From Pseudarthrobacter sulfonivorans (lineage in GTDB: Bacteria; Actinomycetota; Actinomycetes; Actinomycetales; Micrococcaceae): 64,000 nt of DNA. This document shows, piece after piece, positions 57,120 through 63,711 of this stretch (positions are counted from its first letter, which is position 1; every line of letters begins with the position of its first letter). Position numbers and translations under genes: made by a program. The notes beneath the pieces are model-generated. The model saw nothing but the letters and a program-made list of their open reading frames with translations. It was not told the origin of the DNA and ran no database searches. Location of the stretch: positions 1,860,001-1,924,000 of the forward strand of contig NZ_CP013747.1 in NCBI RefSeq assembly GCF_001484605.1, in the 5' to 3' direction.

Positions 57120-58766
57120 ATGGAAGCTTTCGGGGATCAGCTCGCGGACGACGGCGGCACCGCCGTACTGACGGCCGACGCCGGACTGGCTCCGGTGATC
57201 GCCTCGGTGAACGCTGCCGCCGCTTCTGCTCCCGGGACGCTGGCGATGGCCAGCTACGTCGAAGCCGCCGACCTCGCCGGACTGGTTGAGGAGCTCTCCC
57301 GGACCGTGGACTACCTCCAGATCCTCGCCGCGGACGCCGTGGACCGCACCCGCACGCAGGCCATCACCGCCGCCGCAACCACACGCACCACCCGGGACTG
57401 GGTCACCGGGTGGGACAACGGCGTTGAAACCCTGAACGAAACCGACGCCGCCTGGCCCGCCGGTACCACGGGGACAGCCACCGGGAGCACCCGGACTGTT
57501 CCGCGGTCCCCGGCCGATGACGGCTGCAAAAACACCGCCGAATTCCTGCGCCTCCGGCTCCGGATCGGGCGCAGCGAAGCCCACCGCCGCATCCACCTCG
57601 CCCACACCATCCTGCCCGCCACCACCCTCACCGGAGACCCCGCACGCCCATTGAGGGAACACCTCGCCGCAGCCCTCACCCCGACCGCCGGCGCCACGAG
57701 CAGCCCGGCAGAGACCAGCGCCGACGACGACGCCGATGTAACCCCGTGTCAGGCCGTGACAGGGTCGGGGCCCGTGGTCTCCTCCCGCGCCGGGACCATC
57801 ATCAGCGCCACCCTGGACCGCCTCAAACACCACACCACCCCGGAGAACCTGGACCGGATCGAACACGACCTCACCCACACCGCCGCCACCGCGGACCCCG
57901 ACTTCCTCGCCCGCGTCGCCCGCCGCTGGGCCGACACCCTCGACGCCGACGGCACCGAACCCACCGAAGAAGCCCTCCGCCACACCCAAGGCGCGTTCAT
58001 CCGCAAACCCCGCCACGGCCTGCACCACCTCGAAATCTTCGCGACCACCGACCAATACGAACACCTCGCCACCGTCATGAACGCCGCCACCAACCCCCGC
58101 ACCACCACAGCCACAGAGACCGGCACAGGGACCGGCGCAGCCACCGGTACAGAAGCCGGGTCCGACACCGGGCAGGGCGACAACGTCTGGCAGGACAACG
58201 ACCTCGACCTGGACCGACGCACCCGCTCCCAGAAACAACTCGACGGCATCATCGGCGCCCTCAAAGCCGCCCTCAGCACCAACCAACTGCCCACCACCGG
58301 CGGGAACCGCCCCCAAATCCTCGCCACCATCAACTACCAAGACCTCCTCCCCCACCTTCCGGCCCCGGACACCAGCGCCGGCGCAGGCGCAGGCGCAGGC
58401 GCAGCCACGGAGACGGGTACTGGGGCAGGGAATCTGTCTGGGACCGCGAGCAGCAGTACCGCTTCGGAACCCAGCACAGGTTCGGGCAGCTTCACGTTCA
58501 CCGGGCCCGTCGCAGCCACCACCCTTCGCAAACTCGCCTGCGACGCCGACATCATCCCCGTCCTCCTCGGCACCAGCGGCGAAATCCTGGACCAAGGCCG
58601 CAAAACCCGGCTCTTCACCCCCGCCCAACGCCTGGCCCTGAGCGCCCGCGACCAAGGCTGCACCTTCCCCAACTGCACCATCCCAGCCCCCTGGTGCGAA
58701 GCCCACCACATCACCTACTGGTCACAACAAGGCCCCACCAACGTCGGCAACGGCACAAGTTGTTAA
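57120..58766 (+). pseudogene. 5' part of a DUF222/HNH (13E12-type) nuclease gene, split by an integrative element
   Basis: The open frame encodes the DUF222 domain (VDYLQILAADAVDRTRTQAITAAATTRTTRDWVTG, then RLRIGRSEAHRRIHLAHTIL), a variable Thr/Gly/Ala linker with GA repeats near 58378, and the first half of the HNH motif (LSARDQGCTFPNC, PWCEAHHITYW). After GPTNVGNG the native sequence stops and four foreign codons end in TAA at 58764-58766. The remaining half lies at 63532-63711. I start at the ATG at 57120; the frame is open further upstream, but that extension is antisense to the DM13 gene. As it stands, the nuclease lacks its metal-binding His residues and is probably inactive. Confidence 0.9.
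58743..58753. repeat. left attachment site (attL) core
   Basis: GTCGGCAACGG here matches GTCAGCAACGG at 63532-63542 in 10 of 11 positions, with an identical GCAACGG (58747-58753). To its left is uninterrupted nuclease code; to its right the element begins with CACAAG and TTGTTAATCT. Confidence 0.85.
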
Positions 58767-58786
58767 TCTAACCCCCCTTACCTCGG

Positions 58787-60403
58787 TCAGGAATCCTGTT
58801 TCGGCTCGGGGAGACCACAGAGGGAGCGTGCGTAGGTTGCCAGTCGGGACGCTCGAGCCTTGCGGAACGTGTCGAAGTCAGACGCAAAATCCTCGTCCTC
58901 AAGAAATGCCGAGGTCAGAATTTCTCCCAGAATCTCTTCGTCGTCCGGCATGAGCTGCCTGTATACGTCAGGCGCCTTGCGACGAATCTTGTTGTTGTCG
59001 TCGCGCGACAGGAAACAGAAGTTCGCAAAGCTGTTTATTTCGTATGCACTAACATCAAGGTCCTCCAGGTGCGCCTTAGGGAAAATGTGGTGAAATTCGC
59101 TTTTGTTGTAGGCCTGCAGAACGGCTTTGAGGTCTACCTTGTTGCCCGACAAGAAGCTGCGGGGGTTTTGACTAGCGAGCATATTCACAAAGGTTGCCGT
59201 TCTCGCAGAATTCATCCTGAAATTACTGGTGAGAAAAAAGTCGTCAGACACTGAAACCGAGAATTTAGCAATGTCGGCAGAACCGTCGTCGCGTAGTGCT
59301 GCCATTTCGATAATATCGGCTTTGGCTGCTCGAATTGTTTGTCCGCTATAGCGTTCAGAAAAACAAGCCCTCCAGAACCACTTCTTCAATTGCGCAGTCT
59401 GGGCCGAAGTGTGGCGGGGTAGCTGTCCCGAGTCAACCGCAAAGAAAACTGCAAGAGGAACAAGCATCAACGGGTAGGGAAGGGTCTTCACAGTCTCGAC
59501 GTTGAGCTGCTTACTTAGGAACTCAACTGCTCCCTTTATCCCGTTGACCACACGGTCGTAGGCCGCCCGTATTTCGTCGCCATCGGCACTCATCAGTGCC
59601 TCCACCGTCGGGTCGCCCTTCAAGACGGCAGCGCATGCGCGCAGTACTAGATCCCCGCCGGTAACTGCATCGCCGAAGGCGAACAGTTCTAGTTCATCCT
59701 CCAGGTCCAAGAATTTCTGACGAAGGTCGAAGTCTTCACTCCACGTCCATGCCGACAGTAGCTCCAGGGGGCTCAGCTCGACTCCGAGTCGGTTTATTCG
59801 TTCGAACACGATGGCGACAGTCGCCCTATCCTCCGTCTCGATCGCTTGAACGGGAATCATTGCCTCTTTGAAGCGGCTGTGTAGGTCATCAAGCAGATTG
59901 AGCTTGTCCTCATCGGAGCTGAAAGGGTCCGTTGCCCGCCGGTATGCTGCCGAATCAAAAAGTGCCTTTAGTGGAAAATGAGCTTGTGGATCGACTTCGC
60001 TTTCAGCGAGTGCGAGGAATTGTGATTGCTGCGCACTAGCCTCGGCCGTGAGGTCAAAATAAACATCTGGATATTCGTCGCCTGCAGGCCTGGTGAGTTC
60101 GGTTTGAAAGGTCATAAATAATGATGTGACACGCTGTTGTCCATCGAGGACATATGTAACAGGATTAGTGCCCTCCGGCTCGGGCAGGGCATATGGTCCA
60201 ATTTGCCGATCGGCGTCCAACTGCTGTTGGGTCGTCCAGAAAAGCATTGAACCATAGGGATATCCTTTGTAAATTGAATCCATAAAATGAGCAATTCGTT
60301 CTGAATCCCACACAAATGCACGCTGAAACGCTGGAATTCTAATCTGTCCGCTGTGCACGTGAGCGAGAAGCGTTCTGATGGGCATGCTCTTAAGTTCGGC
60401 CAC
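58787..60403 (-). CDS. DUF262/HNH (GmrSD/SspE-like) probable defence nuclease
   Basis: A 538-aa protein. The DUF262 domain has IRIPAFQRAFVWD (residues 21-33) and the ParB-like nucleotide motif DGQQR (87-91). The C-terminal DUF1524/HNH-like nuclease has EFHHIFPKAHLED near residue 436 and then SFANFCFLSRDDNNKIRRKAPDVY. GmrSD-type IV restriction enzymes and SspE share this two-part design and act against phage DNA using nucleotide hydrolysis. The GTG at 60403 has GGAGG 4 nt upstream. It is the only large cargo gene of the element. The defence role is inferred from the family. Confidence 0.85.
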   Translation of the reverse strand: MAELKSMPIRTLLAHVHSGQIRIPAFQRAFVWDSERIAHFMDSIYKGYPYGSMLFWTTQQQLDADRQIGPYALPEPEGTNPVTYVLDGQQRVTSLFMTFQTELTRPAGDEYPDVYFDLTAEASAQQSQFLALAESEVDPQAHFPLKALFDSAAYRRATDPFSSDEDKLNLLDDLHSRFKEAMIPVQAIETEDRATVAIVFERINRLGVELSPLELLSAWTWSEDFDLRQKFLDLEDELELFAFGDAVTGGDLVLRACAAVLKGDPTVEALMSADGDEIRAAYDRVVNGIKGAVEFLSKQLNVETVKTLPYPLMLVPLAVFFAVDSGQLPRHTSAQTAQLKKWFWRACFSERYSGQTIRAAKADIIEMAALRDDGSADIAKFSVSVSDDFFLTSNFRMNSARTATFVNMLASQNPRSFLSGNKVDLKAVLQAYNKSEFHHIFPKAHLEDLDVSAYEINSFANFCFLSRDDNNKIRRKAPDVYRQLMPDDEEILGEILTSAFLEDEDFASDFDTFRKARASRLATYARSLCGLPEPKQDS

Positions 60404-60454
60404 AAATCCTCCATAAATTGATAGCTACCATGAGGATAAGGTGTGAGACGCAGT

Positions 60455-60471
60455 CCGCGCCGAAGGCGCGG
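60455..60471. terminator. short GC hairpin upstream of the DUF262 gene
   Basis: CCGCGCC-GAA-GGCGCGG is a perfect 7-bp stem with a GAA loop in the 140-bp gap between the 80-aa membrane protein and DUF262. On the plus strand it is followed by CTTTACTT. It could terminate plus-strand read-through or tune expression of DUF262 from the upstream gene. Confidence 0.5.
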
Positions 60472-60543
60472 CTTTACTTGAAATAGCAACATAACTCGGA
60501 GTGATTGGATCTGGCGCTGAACCACCAGCCGTGGTGCTGCGAG

Positions 60544-60786
60544 CTAGCCCAGACGCGAAACCCACCCAATAAACCCACCCAGGATCGCTACGACTCCAGC
60601 GGCCAGGAAGATTTTCGCGTAGAGACGGATTCGGCGACGCTTCTTCGTTCTGTATGTAGCCATATCTTCAGTCCGCAGAAATAGATTCCAGTTCGTCGCC
60701 CAACTGGACAGGGGGCCGGACATGGCCAAAGCAAACATGCCCATAAGCACCAAAAGTGAACCCGCCAACAGCGCTTGGCCAGCCAT
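60544..60786 (-). CDS. small two-helix membrane protein
   Basis: An 80-aa protein with two hydrophobic helices (about residues 3-23 and 56-76) joined by a basic loop (TYRTKKRRRIRLYAK). No family is recognised. AGGGGGG lies 6-7 nt before the ATG. It lies 140 nt upstream of the DUF262 gene on the same strand, within the element. It could be a partner of the defence protein, a membrane effector, or an unrelated passenger; the sequence does not decide. Confidence 0.7.
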   Translation of the reverse strand: MAGQALLAGSLLVLMGMFALAMSGPLSSWATNWNLFLRTEDMATYRTKKRRRIRLYAKIFLAAGVVAILGGFIGWVSRLG

Positions 60787-61170
60787 GTATGCCCCCCTAA
60801 AGCCACGAATTGGTACTTGCCACGTTAGCGGGCAGACGGTGGCAAGGGACGCAGCGCCCGCAGGACGCTCCGCGTCCGAGGACGAACGGTCGCGCGGCAG
60901 CTAGTGACAGCCATGTAATTCATATGGCAAGATGGGCGCATTGCAGCCGGCAGAACCAACTCAGGGCCGGAATAGATACTTAGCAGGTGGCCTTCCTGAG
61001 GGGTCGAGCAGCGTGGTAGGCCCGCGTCCAGAGAATGCTCACGGTTAAACGACAGAGTTGGGCCCACCGGAGCGAGACCGGATGCTGAGGCCCCTGTCAT
61101 ATCAATTGCTGCTTTTCCTTTTGTCAGTGGACCTTGGCGATTCCTGTCGGTTTCGTTCTCTTGGGGTCCC
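60787..61170. other. 384-bp gap between divergent element genes, candidate replication origin
   Basis: No convincing gene lies here; a minus-strand open frame at 60825-61211 has no coding-like features. A hairpin GGACGC-TCC-GCGTCC is at 60863-60877. As the region directly upstream of an HUH replication gene, it is the best place for a double-strand origin, but no nick site can be named. It must also hold the promoters of the two divergent units. Confidence 0.4.
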
Positions 61171-61947
61171 ATGTCCACGTCTGCTGTCAACAGGTCACTT
61201 GGGCGGCTCATCGCTGCCGATGCCGGCTGGTTTTTCTCGCTCTATCTGGACGCCGGCGAGGGCGGCGGCGGGTTCCGCTCGTCGTACAAGCCCAACCGTG
61301 CGTTTGTCGCCAAAGGCTCGGCCGCCGATCCTCAACGCGCTGCTGCCGAAGCCGGGAGGCGCGCGAGGTCCAAGCTGCGCCGCTACTGTGCCGCGAACAG
61401 GCTGAACCGTCTCGGAACGCTGACCTATGCCGAGTCCTGCCATGACCCGCAGGAACTACGCTCCCATCTCGGCGCTTTTTTCCGGGATCTCAGGGCGGGC
61501 TTAGGCGGTGCCCCATTGCCGTATGCCTGGGTTCCGGAGTGGCACAAAACGGACCACGGACTGCACGCTCACTTCGCGGTCGGACGTTACATCAAGCAGC
61601 GTCTCATCAAAGAGGCTTGGGGCCGCGGGCACGTCCATATCAAGCTGCTGGGTGACTTACCTGTCGGGTCGGGGGCGTTGTTCGAGGCACGCACGGCAGC
61701 CGGGTATCTGTCAAAGTACGTCTCGAAGACTTTCACGGACCCAGGGTCCCAAGTATTGGGGCTTCACCGCTACGACGTCGCTCAGGGCTTCCAGCCGATC
61801 AAGCTCGCGCTCAGCGGTCACTCCCCCGGTGATGTTCTGGCGCAGGCCTCCGACTACTTGAACGGGCCTCCGGTGACCCAGTGGTCGTCCGCTTCCGTGG
61901 AGGACTGGGCTGGTGCTCCCGCAATCTGGGCGCAGTGGGGTGCATGA
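61171..61947 (+). CDS. rep: HUH-type rolling-circle replication protein (ORF2/G2P-like)
   Basis: A 258-aa Rep. The HUH metal motif lies in DHGLHAHFAVG (His132 and His134 approximately), preceded by the LTYAESCHD motif I and the APLPYAWVPEWHKT stretch seen in replication-associated ORF2/G2P-like proteins. The catalytic Tyr region is GYLSKYVSKTF near residues 178-186. Such enzymes nick one DNA strand and start rolling-circle replication. It has no helicase domain, as in small plasmids and phage-like elements. The ATG follows TTGGGG. It overlaps the next gene by 4 nt. Confidence 0.82.
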   Translation: MSTSAVNRSLGRLIAADAGWFFSLYLDAGEGGGGFRSSYKPNRAFVAKGSAADPQRAAAEAGRRARSKLRRYCAANRLNRLGTLTYAESCHDPQELRSHLGAFFRDLRAGLGGAPLPYAWVPEWHKTDHGLHAHFAVGRYIKQRLIKEAWGRGHVHIKLLGDLPVGSGALFEARTAAGYLSKYVSKTFTDPGSQVLGLHRYDVAQGFQPIKLALSGHSPGDVLAQASDYLNGPPVTQWSSASVEDWAGAPAIWAQWGA

Positions 61948-62117
61948 TGCTGGATCAACGGGTGCTTGCTGCATGGGTGGAGGCCAGTTGTGGTGCCCAG
62001 GGCGTTCCGGTCCGTGTGACCGATCCCGGTGTTCTTGCCCGGGTTGGCGTGCTCATGGGTGCCGCGCCCGGAACGGACGGACGCGGCAGCGGCCGGAGTA
62101 CCGCCGCGGCGTCATAG
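61944..62117 (+). CDS. 57-aa protein coupled to Rep
   Basis: Starts at an ATG overlapping the Rep stop (ATGA, 61944-61947) and encodes 57 residues with one helix (LDQRVLAAWVEASCG) and a Gly/Ser/Ala-rich tail. Its end overlaps the recombinase gene end by 6 nt in convergent orientation. The coupling to Rep suggests it is real and may help replication or act as an excision or copy-control factor, but there is no recognised domain. Confidence 0.5.
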   Translation: MMLDQRVLAAWVEASCGAQGVPVRVTDPGVLARVGVLMGAAPGTDGRGSGRSTAAAS

Positions 62118-63512
62118 CTGCCAAACGGGCTGAATCCGTGCCGGGTCCAGCGATCGCGCTCCCGGTGTCCCCGGCAGAATGGTCGCGTAGTCCAGGACCG
62201 CCTTGATGATCGCAGCCTGCCTGTCCAGGTTCAGCGTCTTCCAGGTGTCCTTCAATTGCCCGCCGGTGCCCACGAGTCCGTCCAGGGCTGTAGAGTTCGA
62301 CGCCATTGCCATCTGTCGCTCCGTGGCCTTTATCCTTGCCTCAATGGGGCCGCGGGCCGCTTTCCACTCCGCGGACGAAATTACCTTGTCTGCCCACAGT
62401 TCGGACAGTTCTTTCATCTGGCTCCGGTCTGCCTCCAACTCCGTCAGCAGGCTGCTTTGCCGCTGATCCGCCGCCCGGCGCCCTGTGAGAGCATCCGACA
62501 TCTCCGTGGTGTCCAGTCGCATGAGCACCGCAGCGGCGAGAAACTCTTCCAGCGGAGGGGCCACGACCGTGATGCCTCCGCAGCCGCCATGGTCTGGCCC
62601 GGAAAGGCAGACGTATCGGCGGGTGTTCACTCGGACGGCGGAGAACAGCTTGTTTCCGCATTTGCCGCACCGCAAAAGGCCGGACAGCACGTACCGCCTC
62701 GGCGCGCGGGTATTGGTCCGTTTCTTGGTTTCGAAGTGGCCAAGTATCTGCTGCCGCTGCTCCGGTGTGATGATCCCGGACCATTGAGCATCCGCCACCA
62801 CAACGCCTTTGTGCTCGCGCAGCCCTGCGATGCGGGCTGATTTCAGGAGGGTGTTTAGGGTCATGGTCTGCCAGGGGCCGCCCGCCGTGGTCTGCACGCC
62901 TTCGCTATTGAGCCAGACACAGATGGACCGCGAGGATTCCCCGGCCAGGAATCGGGCCACGGCCTGACGCAAAATCTCAGCCTCGGCCTCGTTTACAGTC
63001 ATGCGGTCCTGCTCGTATCCAAAGGGGCGGTGGTGGCCCCCGTTAGGTAGTCCCTGCTCGGCCGTCTGCCGGGCCTTGCGCTGAAGACGCTGCGACTTCC
63101 GCCCGGACTCCTTGGATGCGATGGCTGCCAAAATGCGGGCCATAAACAGCCCGTCATCGTTACCGAGATCAATGTCGGCCGTTACCGACTTCACCTGCGT
63201 CACCCCGGCCTGCTCGCACAATCGGGTGAACTGTTCCAACTCCATCGGCTGCCGGGTCAGCCTATCCATGTTGTAAACAATTACTGCGTCGCGGTAGCCT
63301 CCGGCCAAATCGTCAAGCATCCGCTGGTACTGGGGTCTAGGCTTCCCCTTGTAGGCGCTGATGTCGTTGTCGACGTACTCCTCGCCCACCGTCCAGCCGT
63401 GATCGGCGGCGAGCTTGTGGCAGTCTTCCAGCTGGCGTGTCACGCCCAACGCCTCGCCAGATTGATCAGAGGAGATGCGGGCGTAGATCGCGGCGGAGCG
63501 GGGTTGCTTCAT
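62112..63512 (-). CDS. int: large serine recombinase (integrase)
   Basis: A 466-aa serine integrase. The resolvase domain (1-145) has the catalytic Ser14 in IYARISS, VDNDISAYKGKPRPQYQRML and VYNMDRLTRQP, and helix E ARILAAIASKESGRKSQRLQRKAR. The recombinase domain (about 160-265, GHHRPFGYEQDRMTVNEAEAEILRQAVARFL) is followed by a zinc ribbon (LRCGKCGNKLF, CGGITVV) and a coiled-coil. The start ATG is 24 bp from the right attachment core. TAGTCT ends 6 nt before the ATG, and this -10-like box lies inside the attP arm. It should catalyse integration alone; excision usually needs a directionality factor. Confidence 0.94.
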   Translation of the reverse strand: MKQPRSAAIYARISSDQSGEALGVTRQLEDCHKLAADHGWTVGEEYVDNDISAYKGKPRPQYQRMLDDLAGGYRDAVIVYNMDRLTRQPMELEQFTRLCEQAGVTQVKSVTADIDLGNDDGLFMARILAAIASKESGRKSQRLQRKARQTAEQGLPNGGHHRPFGYEQDRMTVNEAEAEILRQAVARFLAGESSRSICVWLNSEGVQTTAGGPWQTMTLNTLLKSARIAGLREHKGVVVADAQWSGIITPEQRQQILGHFETKKRTNTRAPRRYVLSGLLRCGKCGNKLFSAVRVNTRRYVCLSGPDHGGCGGITVVAPPLEEFLAAAVLMRLDTTEMSDALTGRRAADQRQSSLLTELEADRSQMKELSELWADKVISSAEWKAARGPIEARIKATERQMAMASNSTALDGLVGTGGQLKDTWKTLNLDRQAAIIKAVLDYATILPGTPGARSLDPARIQPVWQL

Positions 63513-63518
63513 GGGGTC

Positions 63519-63542
63519 AGACTAACAAATGGTCAGCAACGG
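63519..63542. repeat. right attachment site (attR) core and attP arm
   Basis: The core GCAACGG is at 63536-63542. To its left on the element side is AGACTAACAA (63519-63528), the inverse, with one mismatch, of TTGTTAATCT at 58760-58769 beside the left core. Joining the ends recreates an attP with 10-bp arms and a 20-nt centre whose midpoint is the AA of GCAACGG. Confidence 0.8.
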
Positions 63543-63711
63543 AGCCCTCCTCTGCTCCCATCACCACCACCTCATCCACAAAGAACAATGGACCATCCAC
63601 ACCCGCAACGGCGTCCCCTGGTTCACACCCCCACGCCACATCGACCCCACCCAAAAAACCCAACAAAACCACTACTTCAAACCACCACCCCCACCACCCA
63701 AACGCGAATAA
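63532..63711 (+). pseudogene. 3' part of the split DUF222/HNH nuclease gene
   Basis: Continues the nuclease after the element: V-S-NGALLCSHHHHLIHKEQ, then WTIHTRNGVPWFTPPRHIDPTQK, ending in TAA at 63709-63711. It carries the Asn and the HH...H cluster that complete the HNH metal site begun at 58640-58720. The reading phase matches that of the 5' part exactly across the GCAACGG core. By itself it has no ribosome-binding site or start of its own. Confidence 0.9.

Follow-up and report, generated by a model that had tools for sequence, protein, structure and literature searches.

The window analyzed here is a 64,000-nucleotide stretch of the Pseudarthrobacter sulfonivorans genome (NCBI RefSeq assembly GCF_001484605.1, contig NZ_CP013747.1, positions 1,860,001 to 1,924,000, forward strand). 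A 4,789-bp insertion at 58747-63542 interrupts a DUF222/HNH gene; its genes, read from the left, encode a DUF262 protein (minus strand), an 80-aa open reading frame (ORF; minus), an HUH-type replication initiator (Rep; plus), a 56-aa protein (plus), and a large serine integrase (minus) (Table 1). A first-pass annotation, made from the sequence alone, had described this region as a mini defence element of a distinct class, and its gene positions were borne out by the ORF list. Its claim that transfer, packaging, and partition genes are lacking agrees with Pfam and further profile searches, in which no such family matched the element proteins; a profile search for the FtsK/SpoIIIE-type Tra domain likewise found none in them. 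Here, we report that the insertion quite probably belongs to a family of minimal rolling-circle replicons that integrate into actinobacterial genomes and carry exchangeable cargo.

Table 1. Features of the window element and the interrupted gene (window coordinates)
Feature	Position	Strand	Basis or remark
DUF222/HNH gene, 5' part	57120..58753	+	start codon by eye; DUF222 by Pfam
attL-side direct repeat GCAACGG	58747..58753		sequence comparison; minimal shared core AA
Left arm TTGTTAATCTAACCCC	58760-58775		partner of right-end arm
DUF262 (GmrSD N-terminal domain) cargo protein, 538 aa	58787..60403	-	BrxU/GmrSD-like by profiles
Predicted double-strand origin	60455..60498	+	hairpin CCGCGCC(GAA)GGCGCGG then CTTTACTTGAAATAGCAACATAACTCG; putative role
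Predicted membrane ORF, 80 aa	60544-60786	-	between origin motif and rep; not conserved
Second repeat-rich stretch and possible rep promoter	60841..60935	+	putative role
HUH Rep, 258 aa	61171..61947	+	PF23343; TLTY, H132-x-H134, Y179/K182
56-aa protein	61947..62117	+	overlaps Rep stop codon; conserved neighbour of integrase
Large serine integrase, 466 aa	62112..63512	-	Pfam Resolvase + Recombinase + Zn_ribbon; catalytic S14 by motif
attR-side direct repeat GCAACGG	63536..63542		sequence comparison
DUF222/HNH gene, 3' (HNH) part	63536..63711	+	weak HNH by Pfam

The boundaries were examined in 17 of the 30 loci bearing the left flank (own genome and relatives), the window locus being one of the 17. 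The own-genome paralogue (C1:3249466) and all 15 relatives' copies were uninterrupted at the junction. The element ends, at the GCAACGG repeats that the first-pass annotation had proposed, fit these intact copies. The right-hand neighbour of the window element lies downstream of an intact copy in seven relatives (L094, L095, L096, L098, L099, L113, and L116), no more than 0.4 kb away except in L099 (1.1 kb), and we therefore regard these as syntenic empty sites. Arthrobacter sp. 9AX carries an element on a 5,928-bp contig and an intact target copy elsewhere in the same genome; by eye, its occupied and empty copies reduce the shared core to AA. Just beyond the integrase start, the right-end arm GGGGTCAGACTAACAA mirrors the left arm TTGTTAATCTAACCCC as an imperfect inverted repeat, and inverted 12-mers matching at 9 or more positions between the two ends were found in 14 of 27 elements versus 4% of shuffles. 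By these comparisons, the element is self-contained, with ends that fit the empty sites. The integrase domains and the fitting ends supply, on gene content, the site-specific integrase and own integration/excision expected of an actinomycete integrative conjugative element (AICE) or an integrative mobilizable element (IME).

The integrase gene lies at one end of the element, starting 24 bp from the right repeat, and its product has the resolvase, recombinase, and zinc-ribbon domains and the catalytic serine of a large serine recombinase. Rep matched Pfam REP_ORF2-G2P (52 bits; cut-off, 28) and no other Pfam family, and also belongs to phrog_3419. Its TLTY, HxH, and Y..K motifs, with the catalytic tyrosine, and a predicted model nearest to HUH enzymes are those of an HUH rolling-circle initiator.

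A Rep search of genome contigs yielded 51 loci (L059 and L064 being halves of one element), in 44 of which the same integrase, whole or partial, lies convergent beside rep. Contig ends truncate four of the seven loci lacking it (L064, L067, L070, and L075), and L074 holds a Rep fragment lying 0.85 kb from such an end. Hosts included Arthrobacter, Kocuria, Sinomonas, Microbacteriaceae, Cellulomonas, Nocardioides, and metagenome-assembled genomes assigned to other phyla; the integrase-Rep-variable cargo arrangement that the first-pass annotation had suggested seeking in Micrococcaceae thus recurs in many actinobacteria. Own genome included, Rep matched 10 of 395 genomes of the family (E ≤ 1e-3) and 11 of 394 of the class (E ≤ 1e-30). 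Seven of the other 10 class matches have a full-length Rep, each accompanied by the integrase; five of the seven are new loci, and the other two are L033 and L055 again. Twenty-eight elements could be delimited on both sides (2,926 to 5,797 bp; median, 4,196 bp), some left ends being set by eye, which answers the concern that relatives might prove to be fragments of a larger prophage or integrative conjugative element (ICE). DUF222/HNH pieces were detected by tblastn at the junction (near it in L069) in 23 of 44 loci. By eye, a CpaF-like secretion ATPase gene is the apparent site in L036, L047, L053, L066, and L180, at a GKTTLL motif, and L038 and L178 apparently hold the element in reverse orientation relative to the DUF222 gene.

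Rep and the integrase are constant in the family; most members also have a small protein and, upstream of rep, an origin-like motif. A small protein of the 56-aa type was recognizable in 39 of 44 rep-int loci. The AICE Faln2929 of Frankia is described as having no identifiable directionality factor (PMC3218068). We put the small protein forward as the likely candidate for an excision/directionality factor. Upstream of rep, 39 of 43 loci carried the origin-like motif CTTKACTTGAANTWGCAACRTAACTCG with no more than 5 mismatches; the pattern was derived from these same 43 loci, and the best opposite-strand match in each had 10 to 13 mismatches. Four of the five new loci carried the motif with 0 to 2 mismatches. 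A hairpin with a stem of at least 6 bp precedes the motif in 21 of 40 loci versus 5.8% of shuffles, and 14 of the 21 have a GNA loop. In the window, the predicted origin lies 699 bp upstream of rep, with the 80-aa ORF in between. The CTTG/A step of the motif resembles what we take to be the nick site of pC194-type replicons, and on that account the motif is read as a putative double-strand origin.

A cargo slot of one or two genes, which differ among elements, extends from the left end to the origin motif. Among 378 element pairs, the 22 most similar in Rep (74 to 90%) had no common cargo (BLASTP, E ≤ 1e-3), and Rep identity was at most 70.4% in all 10 cargo-sharing pairs; this comparison took ORFs of at least 170 aa, and in one pair the only ORF of L049 is doubtful. 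The region would thus appear to be an exchangeable slot. Cargo with matches to known or candidate families of defence genes (Pfam/PADLOC) comprised GmrSD (window), TIR (L030), CAP12/Pycsar-type TIR (L041), SIR2/ThsA-like (L053 and L055), AIPR/AbiU (L034 and L058), AbiL plus DUF3226 (L051), NsnB-like ATPase (L032 and L061), PDC-S59 (L037), and RelA/SpoT plus PDC-S33 (L072) proteins. In other elements, PIN_8 (L033), DUF4062 (L062), and DUF6414 (L073) were matched by Pfam alone. At 1e-4, 12 of the 35 elements scanned had cargo matched by PADLOC (13 of 41 proteins); in nine of the 35, the left end was not fixed. By database match, the label of mini defence element suits these 12 elements; the remaining cargo is unclassified, belongs to general families or, in one case, resembles a metal transporter. 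A cargo family of four (L027, L031, L038, and L042) has a weakly CorA-like predicted model, and in the three members scanned (L027, L031, and L042) no Pfam family scored above its cut-off. An N-terminal GDNSTQxQAGGD-like stretch was noted by eye in cargo proteins of about 350 aa from L043 (3899-4972), L048 (8059-9105), L177 (8617-9672), and L180 (8816-9871), which had no PADLOC match.

The cargo of the window element has a GmrSD_N N-terminal domain (PF03235, 107 bits; cut-off, 33). Its best PADLOC profiles were PDC-M55C and HEC-05, the latter spanning residues 1 to 523, and a PDB sequence search matched 7p9k/7p9m alone, which we take to be BrxU. The DUF262 N-terminal domain is common to this protein and the GmrSD/BrxU type IV restriction enzymes, with weak colinear matches beyond it, but overall similarity is low; a C-terminal HNH domain had no Pfam match at E ≤ 1, although an HHIFPK motif was seen by eye. 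Its most likely role is in type IV-like restriction or in abortive defence against phages.

The closest integrases in plasmid and phage collections (55 to 58% identity) are on two actinobacterial plasmids (L122 and L123). Both plasmids hold them in AICE-like elements that also carry FtsK/SpoIIIE genes, an initiator of the AICE type (known from annotation in one case and from tblastn in the other), and, between rep and int, a weakly similar small protein (33 to 38% identity). The replication protein expected of an AICE is RepSA, RepAM, or Prim-Pol. Two AICE-type initiators matched no family Rep by tblastn in the loci examined, and the initiator of the family seems to differ from the AICE type. 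The integration module is probably common by descent to the family and serine-integrase AICEs, and the best reading of these comparisons is of a tra-less relative of those AICEs, AICE-like in integration and with an apparently different HUH Rep. The proposal of a distinct class holds in that the element is recurrent and self-contained, but its integrase relatives place it nearer to AICEs than had been claimed. Integrase relatives also occur without the family Rep (L146 and L153, the latter with an AICE-type initiator and a nearby DUF222 gene), which suggests module exchange. An IMG/VR contig (L161, 1040-3621) encodes a distant Rep (33%) followed directly by another serine recombinase, so that the association of Rep with an integrase may have a longer history and a wider range. 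An AICE Tra query against the own genome gave weak matches (best E, 1.7e-9) in frames of >1,000 aa.

Among known systems, Faln2929 lies in a putative endonuclease gene; its serine recombinase gene is convergent with both tra and rep, and its excision has been detected (PMC3218068, in part). Elements of that type share with the family the convergent recombinase, the endonuclease-gene site, and a rolling-circle initiator (same portion of PMC3218068); unlike them, the family has no FtsK/SpoIIIE gene, a PF23343-type Rep, a size of about 4 kb, and swappable cargo, Faln2929 being set apart by description. Streptococcal IMEs with Rep-like relaxases combine an integrase with a rolling-circle-type initiator, which might double as a relaxase, and transfer via other elements; their hosts differ, and they are likened to the family by description and not by Rep comparison (PMC5704250, in the part available). 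No description of the family was found in the open-licence papers searched, and it is apparently undescribed, falling in the AICE/IME neighbourhood. REP13E12 presumably encodes a DUF222/HNH-type protein. The phiRv1-type serine integrase inserts in it, a likeness in that a serine recombinase targets a repeated sequence (PMC9317374, in part). phiRv1 itself is a prophage-like element with other genes, and the integrases were likened by description only. Tn7-like transposons differ from the family in recombination, size, and hosts. Their likeness is that of a mobile backbone with diverse defence cargo (PMC8649781, in part).

In the life cycle that we propose, the integrase would excise a circle, probably with the 56-aa protein setting directionality, and Rep would nick the CTTKACTTGAA..GCAAC motif, the predicted substrate being the origin hairpin plus CTTTACTTGAAATAGCAAC, so that the circle is copied by rolling-circle replication. 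Transfer between cells would probably follow a borrowed route, after which the circle would re-insert at another core-bearing site or in a DUF222/HNH gene, of which the host has several. The sequences themselves show the ends, the empty sites, conservation of the catalytic residues and of the origin-like motif, and cargo that differs between close backbones; excision, rolling-circle copying, helper-borne transfer, and a defence role for the DUF262 protein are all deduced from gene content and comparison.

Several observations weigh against an active, defence-carrying replicon. Excision as a circle, a rise in copy number, and transfer all went unobserved, and none of eight small contigs tested had overlapping ends. 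L065 and L071 lack the integrase with no contig end to account for it, three of the 11 class matches are broken (L182 to L184), and the origin motif is absent from L179, one of the five new loci. The hairpin in the window is no stabler than shuffles (z = 0.27). PADLOC matched nothing in 23 of 35 elements and did match a flank control of 75 genes (95 families, at most 3 members each); the control lacks a count of distinct matched genes, and we therefore claim no enrichment figure. By eye, the candidate cargo of L181 (6839-7429; left end unfixed) resembles a cadmium-resistance transporter, so that the cargo may not be solely defence.

Three other explanations were weighed. A phage satellite, with Rep copying the circle and a helper phage, possibly a filamentous one or another single-stranded DNA (ssDNA) phage, packaging it, would fit the Pfam and phrog families of Rep, the narrow range of small sizes, and a hairpin beside the origin motif, as in ssDNA replicons. 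We consider it unlikely: a search of 50,697 phage records found no relative of Rep, and IMG/VR gave no close one, only two distant ones (33 to 35%) with an alignment; profile searches found no packaging, capsid, or morphogenesis family in the element; Zot/pI (inovirus) was found neither in the element nor in the own genome; and phage integrases reached 37% identity at best (20 listed of 1,187 records, all below 60%). The dearth of Rep relatives among phages makes satellite life less likely than mobilization by conjugative elements.

That the elements are degenerate AICE/ICE remnants, their transfer genes lost and on the way out, would agree with decayed copies and with the relatives of the integrase and small protein in FtsK-bearing elements. 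The recurrence of one compact plan in many genera, where rep and int are mostly intact, the origin-like motif is conserved, and the cargo is swapped, argues against it, as does the failure of the AICE-type initiators to match any family Rep in the loci examined, and we hold decay to be distinctly improbable. Least credible, to the point of being very remote, is a small rolling-circle plasmid captured by chance beside a chromosomal integrase gene; the replication module is plasmid-like, and a distantly related Rep sits on a 10-kb Brevibacterium plasmid, but that was the only match in 72,556 plasmid records, and the recurrent Rep-integrase linkage is a strong counterargument.

If the family of integrating rolling-circle replicons is as we read it, immune genes travel among actinobacteria in near-minimal packages around one constant core, and rep, int, and the origin motif become a searchable handle for finding defence genes by slot position. 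So small a natural replicon, integrating at a defined site, would also be of use for tool building, and the spread of an element without transfer genes would become directly testable. A bolder version, which we rate as less likely than not, is a distinct self-standing class of 3- to 6-kb replicons that live by shuttling exchangeable immune genes, with Rep serving also as a transfer handle through other elements' machines and the unclassified cargos (L027/L031/L038/L042 and L043/L048/L177/L180) being new defence systems.

The 80-aa membrane protein named in the first-pass annotation is present as an ORF but is nearly private to this copy and no conserved part of the element, with itself and two others found among 5.8 billion proteins searched. 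Between the origin motif and rep, the repeat-rich stretch GGCAAGGGACGCAGCGCCCGCAG (60841-60935) is possibly a single-strand origin; the 23-mer that opens it recurs exactly in L045 and L047 and with 2 mismatches in L026.
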